Assembly (NCBI GenBank): GCA_903819975.1
Contig: CAIJFI010000001.1
Coordinates: 62,001-126,000, forward strand
From: an uncultured Bacteroidota bacterium
GTDB taxonomy: Bacteria > Bacteroidota > Bacteroidia > Chitinophagales > Chitinophagaceae
Length of the DNA stretch: 64,000 nt
Direction: 5' to 3'
Shown: piece after piece, positions 33,930-64,000 of the stretch
How the letters are laid out: the number at the start of each line of letters is the position of its first letter
Position numbering within the stretch: position 1 is the stretch's first letter
Translations under genes and position numbers: made by a program
Notes under the pieces: model-generated
Database searches by the model: none
What the model was told of the DNA's origin: nothing
Seen by the model: the letters and a program-made list of their open reading frames with translations, nothing else

Positions 33930-33957
33930 AGTAGTCAATTTAAAAATATTGACTACT
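33930..33957. promoter_or_regulatory. Inverted repeat upstream of the carbonic anhydrase gene
   Basis: Perfect 10-bp arms (AGTAGTCAAT and ATTGACTACT) flank an 8-base AT loop, and the right arm is followed by TTTATA. It lies 49 bp before the carbonic anhydrase ATG. Genes on both sides point away, so it does not end a known transcript. It may be an operator or a leader hairpin. Confidence 0.45.
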
Positions 33958-59135: not shown

Positions 59136-59750
59136 ATGGCAGCTACAAAAAATTTGATTTTTGATTTAGGCAATGTGTTGTATGATATTGACTTTTCAAA
59201 AATGTATGCTGCTTTTGATACTTTAGGTATTCCAAATTTCGAGAACCACTTTACCTTAAATAAATCAGATCAAATTTTCTTTGATTTAGAAAAAGGCTTG
59301 ATTAATGAACAAGAATTTTGTGATGGTTTTAATGCGTTATATAAATTGTCTTTGTCCAATGATCAAATTGTTGGTGCTTGGAATTCCTTGCTAATTGGGT
59401 ATAGAAAAGAGAGTATTGAATGGATAAAGAAGCATAATAGTATTTACCCGACTTTTTTATACTCCAATACCAATCAGATCCATTATGATTATTTTATCCC
59501 TCAATATGCCCAAGAAATAGGCGGAAACTTCGAAAATTTGTTCAAAACGTCCTATTTTTCGCATAAAATGGGTCAAAGAAAGCCCGATCCGGCCTCTTTT
59601 CAGCATATTTTGGGAAAAGAAGGATTGGTGGCTCAGGAAACTTTATTTATAGACGACAATGAGCCAAATGTGATTGCCGCGGCTTCGGTTGGCCTACAAG
59701 TTTTGTATTTGCAGCCAGGTATGAGGGTGGAAAAGGATTTGGTTCTTTAA
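59136..59750 (+). CDS. HAD-superfamily hydrolase (YihX-like)
   Basis: A 204-residue HAD phosphatase. Motif I is LIFDLGNVLYDIDF with nucleophile D10, close to the E. coli YihX sequence, motif II is FLYSNTNQIHYDYF (with S/T in TLYSNT-like context), the Lys of motif III is in FSHKMGQRKPDPASF, and motif IV is TLFIDDNEPNV. A helical cap is inserted after motif I. YihX dephosphorylates glucose-1-phosphate, but the substrate here is unproven. Confidence 0.87.
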   Translation: MAATKNLIFDLGNVLYDIDFSKMYAAFDTLGIPNFENHFTLNKSDQIFFDLEKGLINEQEFCDGFNALYKLSLSNDQIVGAWNSLLIGYRKESIEWIKKHNSIYPTFLYSNTNQIHYDYFIPQYAQEIGGNFENLFKTSYFSHKMGQRKPDPASFQHILGKEGLVAQETLFIDDNEPNVIAAASVGLQVLYLQPGMRVEKDLVL

Positions 59751-59768: not shown

Positions 59769-60032
59769 CTATTTCTTAACTTCTTCAAAATCAATGTATT
59801 CTGCTTCAACAGCTACTTCTTTTTTGGGAGCATTTGAAGCTTGGTTGCTACTTTGAGTACCAGATTGTGCACTTGCATTTTGGGCCTGTTTGAATGCTTC
59901 TGCCTGTTGTCTTTGCATTTGCTCCATATTTCGTTTCACCGACTTTATGCCTTTGCTAACTGGTACCACTACCTCAAATATAACCTTATAAAGCAGGTAA
60001 ATAATTAGCCCATCAATTATAAATTTCCACAT
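59769..60032 (-). CDS. DUF4834 family small membrane protein
   Basis: An 87-residue protein with one N-terminal membrane helix (FIIDGLIIYLLYKVIFEVVVPV) followed by a basic linker (SKGIKSVKRNMEQMQRQQ), a Gln/Ala/Ser-rich low-complexity region and an acidic end (YIDFEEVKK). This is the layout of DUF4834, a Bacteroidota family of unknown function often found upstream of rimP-type genes. It is divergent from the rimP operon. Confidence 0.75.
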   Translation of the reverse strand: MWKFIIDGLIIYLLYKVIFEVVVPVSKGIKSVKRNMEQMQRQQAEAFKQAQNASAQSGTQSSNQASNAPKKEVAVEAEYIDFEEVKK

Positions 60033-60062: not shown

Positions 60063-60094
60063 TTGGGTGATTTCATCACGTTTTATTACCTTTG
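60063..60094 (+). promoter_or_regulatory. Promoter of the rimP-nusA-infB operon
   Basis: A TTG at 60063-60065 and TACCTTTG at 60087-60094 form a Bacteroidota -33/-7 pair with a 21-bp spacer, the same spacing as the promoter at 59089-59121. Transcription would start near 60100, leaving a leader of about 50 nt before rimP. Confidence 0.6.
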
Positions 60095-60115
60095 TTCCAG
60101 AATAAGCAGAGAAAT

Positions 60116-60147
60116 GAAGGGAACGAAATCGTTCCCTTCTTCTTTTT
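60116..60147 (+). terminator. Terminator-like hairpin in the rimP leader
   Basis: Perfect 11-bp arms (GAAGGGAACGA and TCGTTCCCTTC, 60116-60126 and 60129-60139) are followed by TTCTTTTTT. The structure lies between the predicted promoter and the rimP ATG at 60153. No plus-strand gene ends upstream within range, so it is best read as a leader attenuator or a structured 5' end. Confidence 0.65.
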
Positions 60148-60152
60148 TAACT

Positions 60153-60623
60153 ATGGAAGTAAACGATTTAAAAGAAAGGGTACACGGTATAATTGAGCCT
60201 CTATTAGTAGAGGATCCAGAATATTTTTTAGTGTGGATTAAGGTAAAACCAGGCCACATTATAAGAGTGTACCTAGACGGAGACAACGGGTTGCCTATTC
60301 AAAAGTGTATTTACTTTAACCGTAAATTATACAGGGCCATTGAGGAAGCGGGTTGGTTCCCAGACGGTGACTTTGCTTTAGAAGTTTCTTCACCAGGCGT
60401 TGACGAACCATTGCTATTAAAAAGACAATACAATAAAAATATAAATCGTAAGGTAGAAGTAGAATTATTAGACGGCACTAAAAAAGAGGGTACGTTAACT
60501 ACTGTCGCAGAGGCGGATATTATTATTGAGTGGACAGAAGGAAAGGGTAAAAAAGCAACCCAGCACCAATTGCTTATTCCGTTTGAGAATATTAAATCAA
60601 CTATAGTTCAAATTCAATTTTAA
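60153..60623 (+). CDS. rimP: Ribosome maturation factor RimP
   Basis: A 156-residue factor for 30S subunit maturation. The start MEVNDLKERVHGIIEPLL, the segment FALEVSSPGVDEPLL with the SSPGVD hallmark, and the C-terminal SH3-like part (NRKVEVELLDGTKKEGTL) are typical. The frame is open to 60063 from a TTG, but that portion includes the promoter and hairpin, so the ATG at 60153 is preferred. nusA follows 38 bp downstream. Confidence 0.93.
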   Translation: MEVNDLKERVHGIIEPLLVEDPEYFLVWIKVKPGHIIRVYLDGDNGLPIQKCIYFNRKLYRAIEEAGWFPDGDFALEVSSPGVDEPLLLKRQYNKNINRKVEVELLDGTKKEGTLTTVAEADIIIEWTEGKGKKATQHQLLIPFENIKSTIVQIQF

Positions 60624-60661: not shown

Positions 60662-61912
60662 ATGGCAAGTATAAATTTGATTGAAGCCTTTCAGGAGTTT
60701 AAAGACGCAGAAAGCATTGATCGTCCCACGATGATGAAAGTGGTAGAGGATGTTTTTAAAACTTTACTAAGAAAAAAATATGGTAGCGACGAAAATTTCG
60801 ACGTTATCGTGAACGCTGAAAAAGGTGACTTAGAAATAATTCGTCGTCGTGAAATTCGTCCTGATGATGACGTTGATAATCCTTTAGCTGAGGTTTCTTA
60901 CTCTGACGCAATCAAGATAGAGCCTGACTTTGAGATAGGTGAGGAATTATTAGAGGAAGTAAATATTTACGATTTTGGTCGTCGTGCTATCTTAGCTGCA
61001 AAGCAAACTTTAGCATCTCGCATAAACGATTTAAAAAAGAATGCATTAGTTAAAAAATATTCTGATAGAATAGGCGAAATTATCAATGCTGAAATTTATC
61101 AGGTTTGGAAAAAAGAAGTTTTGTTATTAGACGAAGAAGGAAATGAATTAATTCTTCCTAAGACTGAACAAATTCCTCAAGACTTTTTTAAGAAAGGAGA
61201 AAACATCAGAGCAGTAATTGCACGTGTGGATATGAAAAACAATTCACCTGTAATTATCTTATCTAGAACAAGTCCTTTATTCCTTGCTAAATTATTAGAG
61301 ATTGAAGTACCTGAAATTTTTGATGGCTTAATCACTATCAAGAAAATTGTTCGTGAGCCAGGTGAGCGTGCTAAAGTAGCAGTTGAATCATTTGATGATC
61401 GTATCGATCCAGTAGGTGCTTGTGTGGGAATGAAAGGTTCTCGTATTCATGGAATTGTTCGTGAATTGAAAAACGAAAATATCGATGTAATCAACTTTAC
61501 TACTAACACACAATTATTAATTCAACGTTCATTGACGCCAGCTAAAATTAGCTTCATGAATTTGGATAACGATCGCAAGCGTGCCGAAGTGTATTTGCAA
61601 GCAGATCAAGTGTCATTAGCAATTGGTCGTCGTGGTGTTAACATCAAATTGGCTTCTGAATTAACAGGATACGAATTGGATGTTTACCGTGAAGACGAGG
61701 AAGTGGTTGACGAATTTGATATTGATATGGATGAATTTACAGATGAAATTGAAACATGGATTATCGACGAATTTAAGCGTGTAGGTTGTGATACGGGCCG
61801 TGCAGTATTAAAATTAAGCGCCGATGAATTAGAAAGAAGAACAGACTTGGAAAAAGAAACGATTGCTGAAGTGCGTCGTGTCTTACAAGAAGAGTTTGAC
61901 AAAGGTGAATAA
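60662..61912 (+). CDS. nusA: Transcription termination/antitermination factor NusA
   Basis: A 416-residue RNA polymerase-binding factor. It begins MASINLIEAFQEFKDAESIDR, the usual Bacteroidota start. An N-terminal polymerase-binding domain, an S1 domain (about residues 135-200), and two KH domains follow (GACVGMKGSRIHGIVRELKNENIDV and AIGRRGVNIKLASELTGYELDV). A short C-terminal helix-hairpin module (GCDTGRAVLKLSADELERRTDLE) ends it. The frame opens six codons earlier, but the ATG at 60662 matches the family. Co-transcription with rimP and infB is standard. Confidence 0.95.
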   Translation: MASINLIEAFQEFKDAESIDRPTMMKVVEDVFKTLLRKKYGSDENFDVIVNAEKGDLEIIRRREIRPDDDVDNPLAEVSYSDAIKIEPDFEIGEELLEEVNIYDFGRRAILAAKQTLASRINDLKKNALVKKYSDRIGEIINAEIYQVWKKEVLLLDEEGNELILPKTEQIPQDFFKKGENIRAVIARVDMKNNSPVIILSRTSPLFLAKLLEIEVPEIFDGLITIKKIVREPGERAKVAVESFDDRIDPVGACVGMKGSRIHGIVRELKNENIDVINFTTNTQLLIQRSLTPAKISFMNLDNDRKRAEVYLQADQVSLAIGRRGVNIKLASELTGYELDVYREDEEVVDEFDIDMDEFTDEIETWIIDEFKRVGCDTGRAVLKLSADELERRTDLEKETIAEVRRVLQEEFDKGE

Positions 61913-61992
61913 CCTTTGAATTAGAAGTATATTTGTATTAGGTGACTCGTCCCGCGTCATCTTAAGAATGAACTGGGACAAAAAACAACAGA

Positions 61993-64000
61993 ATGTCAGA
62001 ATTGAAACTACCAAGACTGTTAGCAGCCGCTAAAGAATTCAATGTGGGTCAAGATACCATCATTGATTTCTTGGCTAAGAAAGGTTTTCCTAAAGACGAC
62101 CTTAAGCCAACAGCTAAATTATCTGAAGAGCAGTATTATGCTTTGCAGGCTGAATTTCAAAGCGATAAAGTCGCTAGAAATAAAGCGGATCATGTTGAAT
62201 TGCCAAAGAATGCAATTAGCGACAAAGCAAAAAAGGCGGATGAGCCTGTTGCTGAAGTAAAGAAAGTAGAAGCACCTATAGCTGCTGCTCCTGAAGTTAA
62301 AAAAGTGGATGCGTTTGCAGAGATTGCAAATCCAACTCCGGTTAAGGAAGAGGCGCCTGCTCCAGTTAAAGTGGAAGTGCCAGAAGTGGAAGCTCCAAAA
62401 GTGATTAATAAAATTGACCTGTCTTTAATTGACTCGTCAACACGTCCAAAAAAAGCTGCTAAAAAAGTGGAACCTACTCCTGCTCCTGCAGCTGAGGAAA
62501 AACCAAAAGCAGAAACTAAAAAAGCAGCTGCTCCTAAAGTAGATGCCCCTAAACCAGCTCCGGCTGCTCCAGTGGATCACTCAATTGCACCAGAAAATGT
62601 GCATGGAGAAATCACAAACATTCAAGCGGATAAATTAACTGGTCCAAAAATTTTGGGCAAGATTGATTTACCAATTAATAGCGATACGCGCCCTAAGCCT
62701 TTAAGCCAGGAGGAAAAGCGTACACGTAAACGTATTCCTGTTCAAGGTCAAGGTAATCGTCCACAAGGCCAAGGTCAACAAGGTGGTGGAAATGTACAAG
62801 GCGGTGGTGGTTATCAAGGCAATCGCCCACAAGGCGGTGGTGGCGGATACCAAGGCAATCGTCCACAAGGCGGCGGCGGTGGTTATCAAGGCAATCGTCC
62901 TAATAATCGTCCAGGCCAAGCCGGTGGTGGAGCACGCGGAAGAAACATGCCTCAAACTGCAGAACAAAAAGAAATAGATCAAAAAGCAATTCAAGATAAG
63001 ATTAAGGAAACACAAGCTAAATTATCTGGCCAAGGTGGTAGAGGTAAGAGCATGAAATCCAAATATCGTCGTCAAAGAAGAGAAGAAGCTGCTGAAAACG
63101 AAAACAACGAGCAAAGAGAAGACAACAAATTACAGGTAACAGAATTTGTTACAGTAAGTGAGTTATCAAGTTTGATGGATGTGAGTTTTGCCGATATCAT
63201 TAGCAAGTGTATGAACTTGGGTATCATGGTTTCTATCAACCAACGGTTAGATGCCGAGGTAATTGAATTAGTGGCATCTGAATTTGGATTTGAAGTTGAA
63301 TTCGTTGGATTAGAAGATGCAGAAGAAATGGATGAAGAAGAAGAAGCAGAAGATCAAGCGAATTTAGTTGAACGTCCTCCAATTGTGACTATCATGGGTC
63401 ACGTGGATCACGGTAAAACTTCATTACTGGATTATATTCGTAACGCAAATGTGGTTGCAGGTGAGGCCGGTGGTATCACGCAGCACATTGGAGCATACGA
63501 GGTAACATTACCAAACGGAAAAGCAATTACTTTCTTGGATACTCCAGGTCACGAAGCCTTTACAGCGATGCGTGCGCGTGGTGCTAAAATCACAGACATT
63601 GCAATTATTGTAGTAGCTGCCGATGACGCAGTGATGCCACAAACTAAGGAAGCAATCAGTCACTCGCAAGCAGCGAATGTGCCGATGATTTTTGCGGTGA
63701 ATAAAATTGATAAAGACGGTGCACAACCGCAAAAGATATACGAGCAATTATCTCAAATGAACATTTTAGTAGAAGCTTGGGGTGGTAAATTCCAAAACCA
63801 AGAATTATCTGCTAAACAAGGTTTAAATGTAGATGCATTGTTAGAGAAAGTATTATTAGAGTCTGAAATTTTAGACTTGAAAGCAAATCCTAACCGCGAG
63901 GCAACAGGTAGTGTAATTGAAGCGTCCTTGGATAAAGGTCGTGGATATGTTGCAACCATCTTGGTTCAAAACGGAACATTACGTCAAGGTGATTTGATTT
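61993..64000 (+). CDS. infB: Translation initiation factor IF-2 (3' end outside window)
   Basis: The first 669 codons of IF-2, which brings initiator tRNA to the ribosome using GTP. The N-terminal domain starts [21 protein letters not shown] long Lys/Ala/Pro/Glu linker and a Gly/Gln/Asn/Arg-rich repeat region (62800-62910) follow. The second N-domain ([19 protein letters not shown]) leads to the GTPase with GHVDHGKTS (G1), DTPGHEAF (G3) and NKID (G4). The frame is still open at the right edge. A spacer of 80 bp separates it from nusA. Confidence 0.97.
62800..62910 (+). repeat. In-frame tandem repeat in infB linker
   Basis: Three imperfect units of about 33-36 bp encode the pattern [11 protein letters not shown]. 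Codons vary between units (GGT/GGC, TAT/TAC), so the repeat is old enough to have drifted. It lies in the disordered N-terminal linker of IF-2. Confidence 0.85.

Follow-up and report, generated by a model that had tools for sequence, protein, structure and literature searches.

What does a terminator-like hairpin do ahead of the first gene of an operon, at a place where there is no upstream gene for it to end? The question is raised by a site on contig CAIJFI010000001.1 (GCA_903819975.1) of an uncultured Chitinophagaceae bacterium (Bacteroidota), of which a window of 64,000 nucleotides (62,001-126,000 of the forward strand) was analyzed; all site coordinates below are window positions. The plus strand carries rimP (60153-60623; 156 aa; Pfam RimP_N and RimP C-terminal SH3 domain), nusA (60662-61912; 416 aa; NusA_N and KH_5) and infB, encoding IF2 (61993-63999, running off the window; IF2_N and GTP_EFTU). 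The rimP-nusA-infB operon is essential, and NusA is a transcription factor. The upstream neighbor, a DUF4834 gene (59769-60032), lies on the minus strand, divergent from rimP, and the next plus-strand gene, a HAD gene, ends at 59750, with the DUF4834 gene between it and the hairpin. The hairpin therefore cannot be an end-of-gene terminator, in agreement with a preliminary description of this DNA, which held that it ends no upstream gene.

The site has the layout of a promoter followed immediately by a terminator. On the plus strand, a candidate −33 element, TTGG (60063-60066), which has TTGG or TTTGG as its counterpart in most relatives, precedes a −7 element of the Bacteroidota type TAnnTTTG (TACCTTTG, 60087-60094), present in 95 of 97 relatives. 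Judged from this element, the first part of the leader RNA would cover 60100-60115, transcription beginning some 13-16 nt ahead of the stem. The hairpin itself, GAAGGGAACG-AAAT-CGTTCCCTTC, occupies 60116-60139 and is directly followed by the U-tract TTCTTTTTTA (60140-60149) with a conserved C at +3; thirteen bases separate the stem from the rimP ATG at 60153. The −7 element at 60087, the T-rich run after the stem and the ATG 14 bp past it were thus all placed correctly in the preliminary description, as was the perfect stem, but its length of 11 bp requires a 2-nt loop, while RNA folding yields ten unbroken pairs closed by a 4-nt loop. The folding energy of the leader is −23.5 kcal/mol, compared with −15.8 (sd 2.9) for shuffled sequences (z −2.6; 2 of 200 shuffles equal it). 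Four perfect terminator-like hairpins, this one included, were found on the plus strand of the window; of the other three, two mark the ends of genes and one precedes a carbonic anhydrase gene. At 33931-33956, the palindrome GTAGTCAAT..ATTGACTAC, followed by TTTTATAC, lies 50 nt ahead of the carbonic anhydrase gene (34006), divergent from a ClC channel gene, and is a candidate leader hairpin or operator. The rimP-leader stem occurs at a single site in its own genome, even when 3 mismatches are allowed, and neither further copies nor a repeat family of the hairpin were found there.

Leaders were then compared in related genomes, a check proposed in the preliminary description. The same stem, together with the same U-tract, stands upstream of rimP in 68/68 congeners, although RimP identity falls to 49%. 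With any 4-nt loop, the exact stem was found in 82/296 family genomes, in nearly all of them at a single place, whereas a reversed control pattern had 0 occurrences in the 296. A covariance model built from 30 copies matches 231/296 Chitinophagaceae genomes and 71/89 genera. Exact copies were read from the family scan and from the matches listed in a scan of one genome per GTDB species, 110 in all; among these listed matches, a RimP reading frame lies 9-126 nt downstream in 108, and 9-17 nt from the stem in most relatives. The two exceptions are a locus cut off at its end and a 3' terminator in Sphingobacterium. Among 19 congeners with no RimP match the leader is also absent in 17, and the remaining two copies lie at contig ends. 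One congener (G025), rated 99% complete, has neither a RimP match nor a leader, through rimP loss or an assembly gap. Outside Chitinophagaceae the model matches ordinary 3' terminators and not rimP leaders, so the exact stem is essentially a trait of this family. In Sphingobacterium faecium (L157:5575-5598) it serves as the terminator of a 689-aa ORF that, by eye, resembles methionyl-tRNA synthetase; this occurrence is probably a coincidence. The conservation of the rimP-leader hairpin is far above chance.

Analysis of the 97 copies revealed what is kept and what is free to vary. All ten stem pairs form in every copy; only two of them vary, each by a double change that preserves pairing, while the GGG/CCC core is invariant and is followed by an A-U pair. 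The loop, by comparison, takes 25 sequences and two lengths, the arms being spaced by 4 bp in 66/97 relatives and by 5 bp in 31/97. The U-tract, which was not a search criterion in this set, has the consensus T-T/C-C-T-T-T-T-T, with T at +1 in 100%, C at +3 in 89% and T at +4 to +8 in 84-100%. From the end of the −7 element to the stem there are 17-23 nt, mostly 18-21, in the 95 of 97 relatives that have the element. At three loci (L101, L104 and L107), rimP starts about 100 nt further downstream and the U-tract still adjoins the stem, so its function belongs with the hairpin rather than with the start codon. The −7 element, its near-constant distance to the stem, the stem itself and the adjoining U-tract are thus kept as a set, and hairpin and U-tract form one unit tied to the promoter, which is what a leader terminator would lead one to expect.

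We consider it likely that this unit is a promoter-proximal intrinsic terminator acting as a transcription attenuator of rimP-nusA-infB, with readthrough most likely set by NusA. RNA polymerase would start about 15 nt ahead of the stem, the nascent RNA would fold into the GAAGGGAACG/CGUUCCCUUC hairpin followed by a U-tract interrupted by C at +3, and polymerase would either stop at the U-tract, releasing a leader RNA of about 45-50 nt, or read on into rimP. With only some 13 nt of RNA ahead of the stem, an aptamer, a leader peptide or an antiterminator cannot be accommodated; since the terminator is imperfect and is preceded by nothing capable of housing a sensor, readthrough would most likely be governed by termination-promoting factors, and what is sensed is therefore probably the termination machinery itself, of which NusA is the best candidate. 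NusA would come first among these factors in setting readthrough, more NusA giving more termination and less operon mRNA. For termination in the cell, this proposal draws on the sequence features described above; for the role of NusA, it leans on published precedent in other phyla.

These precedents are direct. In 2010 Naville and Gautheret presented the rimP-leader as the most ubiquitous of attenuators, a terminator standing alone whose stem letters are conserved to an unusual degree; they proposed NusA as its reader and also raised RimP feedback (PMC2965389). In Streptococcus agalactiae, rimP transcripts end 31 nt past their start, at a terminator before rimP (PMC4448216), and in Bacillus subtilis NusA controls its own expression by stimulating termination in its leader (2025 review, PMC12288461) and aids termination at suboptimal hairpins and U-tracts (PMC8060035). 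Like the 2010 element, the hairpin described here is a short lone terminator with a G-rich 5' arm, a C-rich 3' arm and unusually conserved stem letters, at a similar distance from the gene (4-130 nt there, 9-126 here). It belongs to the 5' UTR of an operon whose downstream genes Pfam identifies as rimP, nusA and infB, is directly adjoined by a T-stretch, and with 17-23 nt between −7 element and stem has no larger conserved sensor or antiterminator. The two share a GGG/CCC core but differ in the stem beyond it: the 2010 element has the motif GGGc(...)gCCC (PMC2965389), whereas in the fixed stem GAAGGGAACG the pair after GGG is A-U. Elsewhere in Bacteroidota the stem changes from family to family, and in some CCC stands on the 5' arm. 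Bacteroidetes are absent from the main text of that study (PMC2965389). The Rfam scan gave no match at the rimP-leader site; in particular, the 102-position rimP model RF01770, likewise a leader of rimP with a terminator, has no match at the window site and none at or above the gathering cut-off in the whole genome, and thus misses the rimP leader in this organism. The window leader is a Bacteroidota variant of the rimP-leader kind and not a member of RF01770.

What is shared with B. subtilis NusA autoregulation is an intrinsic terminator ahead of the genes of the nusA operon and, by analogy, negative feedback; in B. subtilis NusA depletion helped to establish this feedback, which is proposed here from precedent. 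The leader of S. agalactiae gbs0413-gbs0418 (PMC4448216) is equal in scale and layout, with termination before rimP, but belongs to another phylum and has mapped RNA ends. Within the phylum, a transcribed, conserved and structured 5' region without an Rfam match precedes rimP in Flavobacterium psychrophilum (PMC9723704), where it appears in a list only, its mechanism not having been worked out. The preliminary description had likened the element in principle to the autoregulated E. coli nusA operon; the E. coli metY-rimP-nusA leader is more complex, and the closest precedents are instead the rimP-leader and NusA attenuation in B. subtilis or S. agalactiae. Given these published leaders, NusA feedback would be the simplest reading here too. 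Of the earlier suggestion that the operon senses its own NusA level, the attenuator has thus been strengthened by a co-conserved promoter element, a near-constant distance, stem and U-tract, and by a terminator before rimP nearly throughout the phylum, while NusA as the signal has the support of published precedent in other phyla.

That spread was seen in a survey of 111 Bacteroidota genomes, in which a terminator-like hairpin of −8 kcal/mol or lower with a U-run, here a search criterion for genomes and control stretches alike, lies within 150 nt before rimP in 110, compared with 14% of shuffles, an approximate control that moved two-base blocks. At −10 kcal/mol or lower the figures are 87% versus 6%. 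The control stretches gave 7% at the rimP/nusA junction, 2% inside nusA and 13% further upstream at the −8 threshold. The count was taken irrespective of the upstream gene, and a few of these hairpins may end one. Stems differ by family (GAGGGGAC/GTCCCCTC, AAGTGGGG/CCCCACTT, TCGCCC/GGGCGA), and in 58/111 genomes the 5' arm has GGG and the 3' arm CCC, in 28/111 the reverse. Loci L267-L380, from other Bacteroidota, carry family-specific rimP leader stems, with an inverted CGCCC/GGGCG type in one family.

Several other functions could place a hairpin here. It might be a 5' mRNA stabilizer or a translation control element whose U-tract merely offers an unstructured ribosome landing site, as its end 13 nt ahead of the ATG, and 9-17 nt in most relatives, would suit; we regard this as unlikely, since the U-tract stays against the stem even in leaders whose ATG lies some 30-126 nt off, hairpin and U-run recur throughout the phylum with different letters, and the infB leader hairpin has the A-rich tail of a non-terminator. 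The 24-bp palindrome, which is perfect, letter-invariant in its arms and present once per genome, could instead act as an operator in the DNA, bound by a dimeric repressor shortly after the promoter. Yet the conserved U-tract is orientation-specific, families change the letters while keeping hairpin and U-run, and the bacterium's own genome has no second site, which makes an operator very improbable; a dimeric one was rejected on the arm spacing of 4 or 5 bp noted above, a variation that dimeric operators rarely tolerate. Least credible of all is a hairpin within the rimP coding region: an ATG at 60114 is in frame with RimP in the window, but the distance from stem to gene is not constant modulo three across relatives. 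Translation from 60114 was rejected on this ground and because many congeners lack the ATG (gtGAAGGG, tcGAAGGG, ttGAAGGG).

A leader terminator that answers to something other than NusA, such as NusG, RimP, NTP levels or an early state of RNA polymerase, is a further alternative. The letter-fixed stem suggests specific recognition, NusG likewise drives intrinsic termination in B. subtilis (PMC8060035), and RimP feedback was raised in the 2010 study (PMC2965389); direct precedent for the rimP-nusA operon nevertheless points to NusA (PMC12288461, PMC4448216), and we think another signal improbable.

Two features were unexpected. The stem letters of the rimP leader are fixed although its loop varies and an ordinary terminator in the same genomes changes its stem. 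The 3' terminator of the alanine dehydrogenase gene in the same genus (protein 87-100% identical) has at least seven different stems, with an uninterrupted T-run in most copies (the U-run being a search criterion for this set), and the infB leader hairpin of the same operon, which ends in an A-rich sequence, varies in its stem letters with pairing mostly kept (22 distinct congener versions). Because both hairpins change letters, the rimP stem is held by more than base pairing; fixed stem letters are, by these comparisons, not general to hairpins in these genomes. Such invariance within the family exceeds a terminator's needs and counts against the attenuator reading. The conserved C at +3 of the U-tract was the other unexpected feature; it may weaken the terminator and to that extent also counts against the reading. 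Tentatively, and as a possibility we rate below an even chance, the stem letters could be read directly by a co-evolved protein, for example by the KH/S1 domains of NusA or by RimP, each Bacteroidota family having its own recognition code. In the nusA-infB spacer, a TAnnTTTG-type element (TATATTTG, 61928-61935) precedes the infB leader hairpin (about 61949-61979), whose tail lies just before infB; this arrangement, with pairing mostly preserved as the letters change, suggests that infB also has a promoter of its own, followed by a distinct leader hairpin.

Because the same genomes carry a regulatory stem with frozen letters alongside ordinary terminators that change freely, one can test whether leader terminators of this kind are recognized by sequence or by shape alone. 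A phylum-wide covariance family could be built from the family-specific rimP leaders. The results indicate that termination in the rimP-nusA-infB leader, already known in Firmicutes and Gammaproteobacteria, is near-universal in Bacteroidota too.
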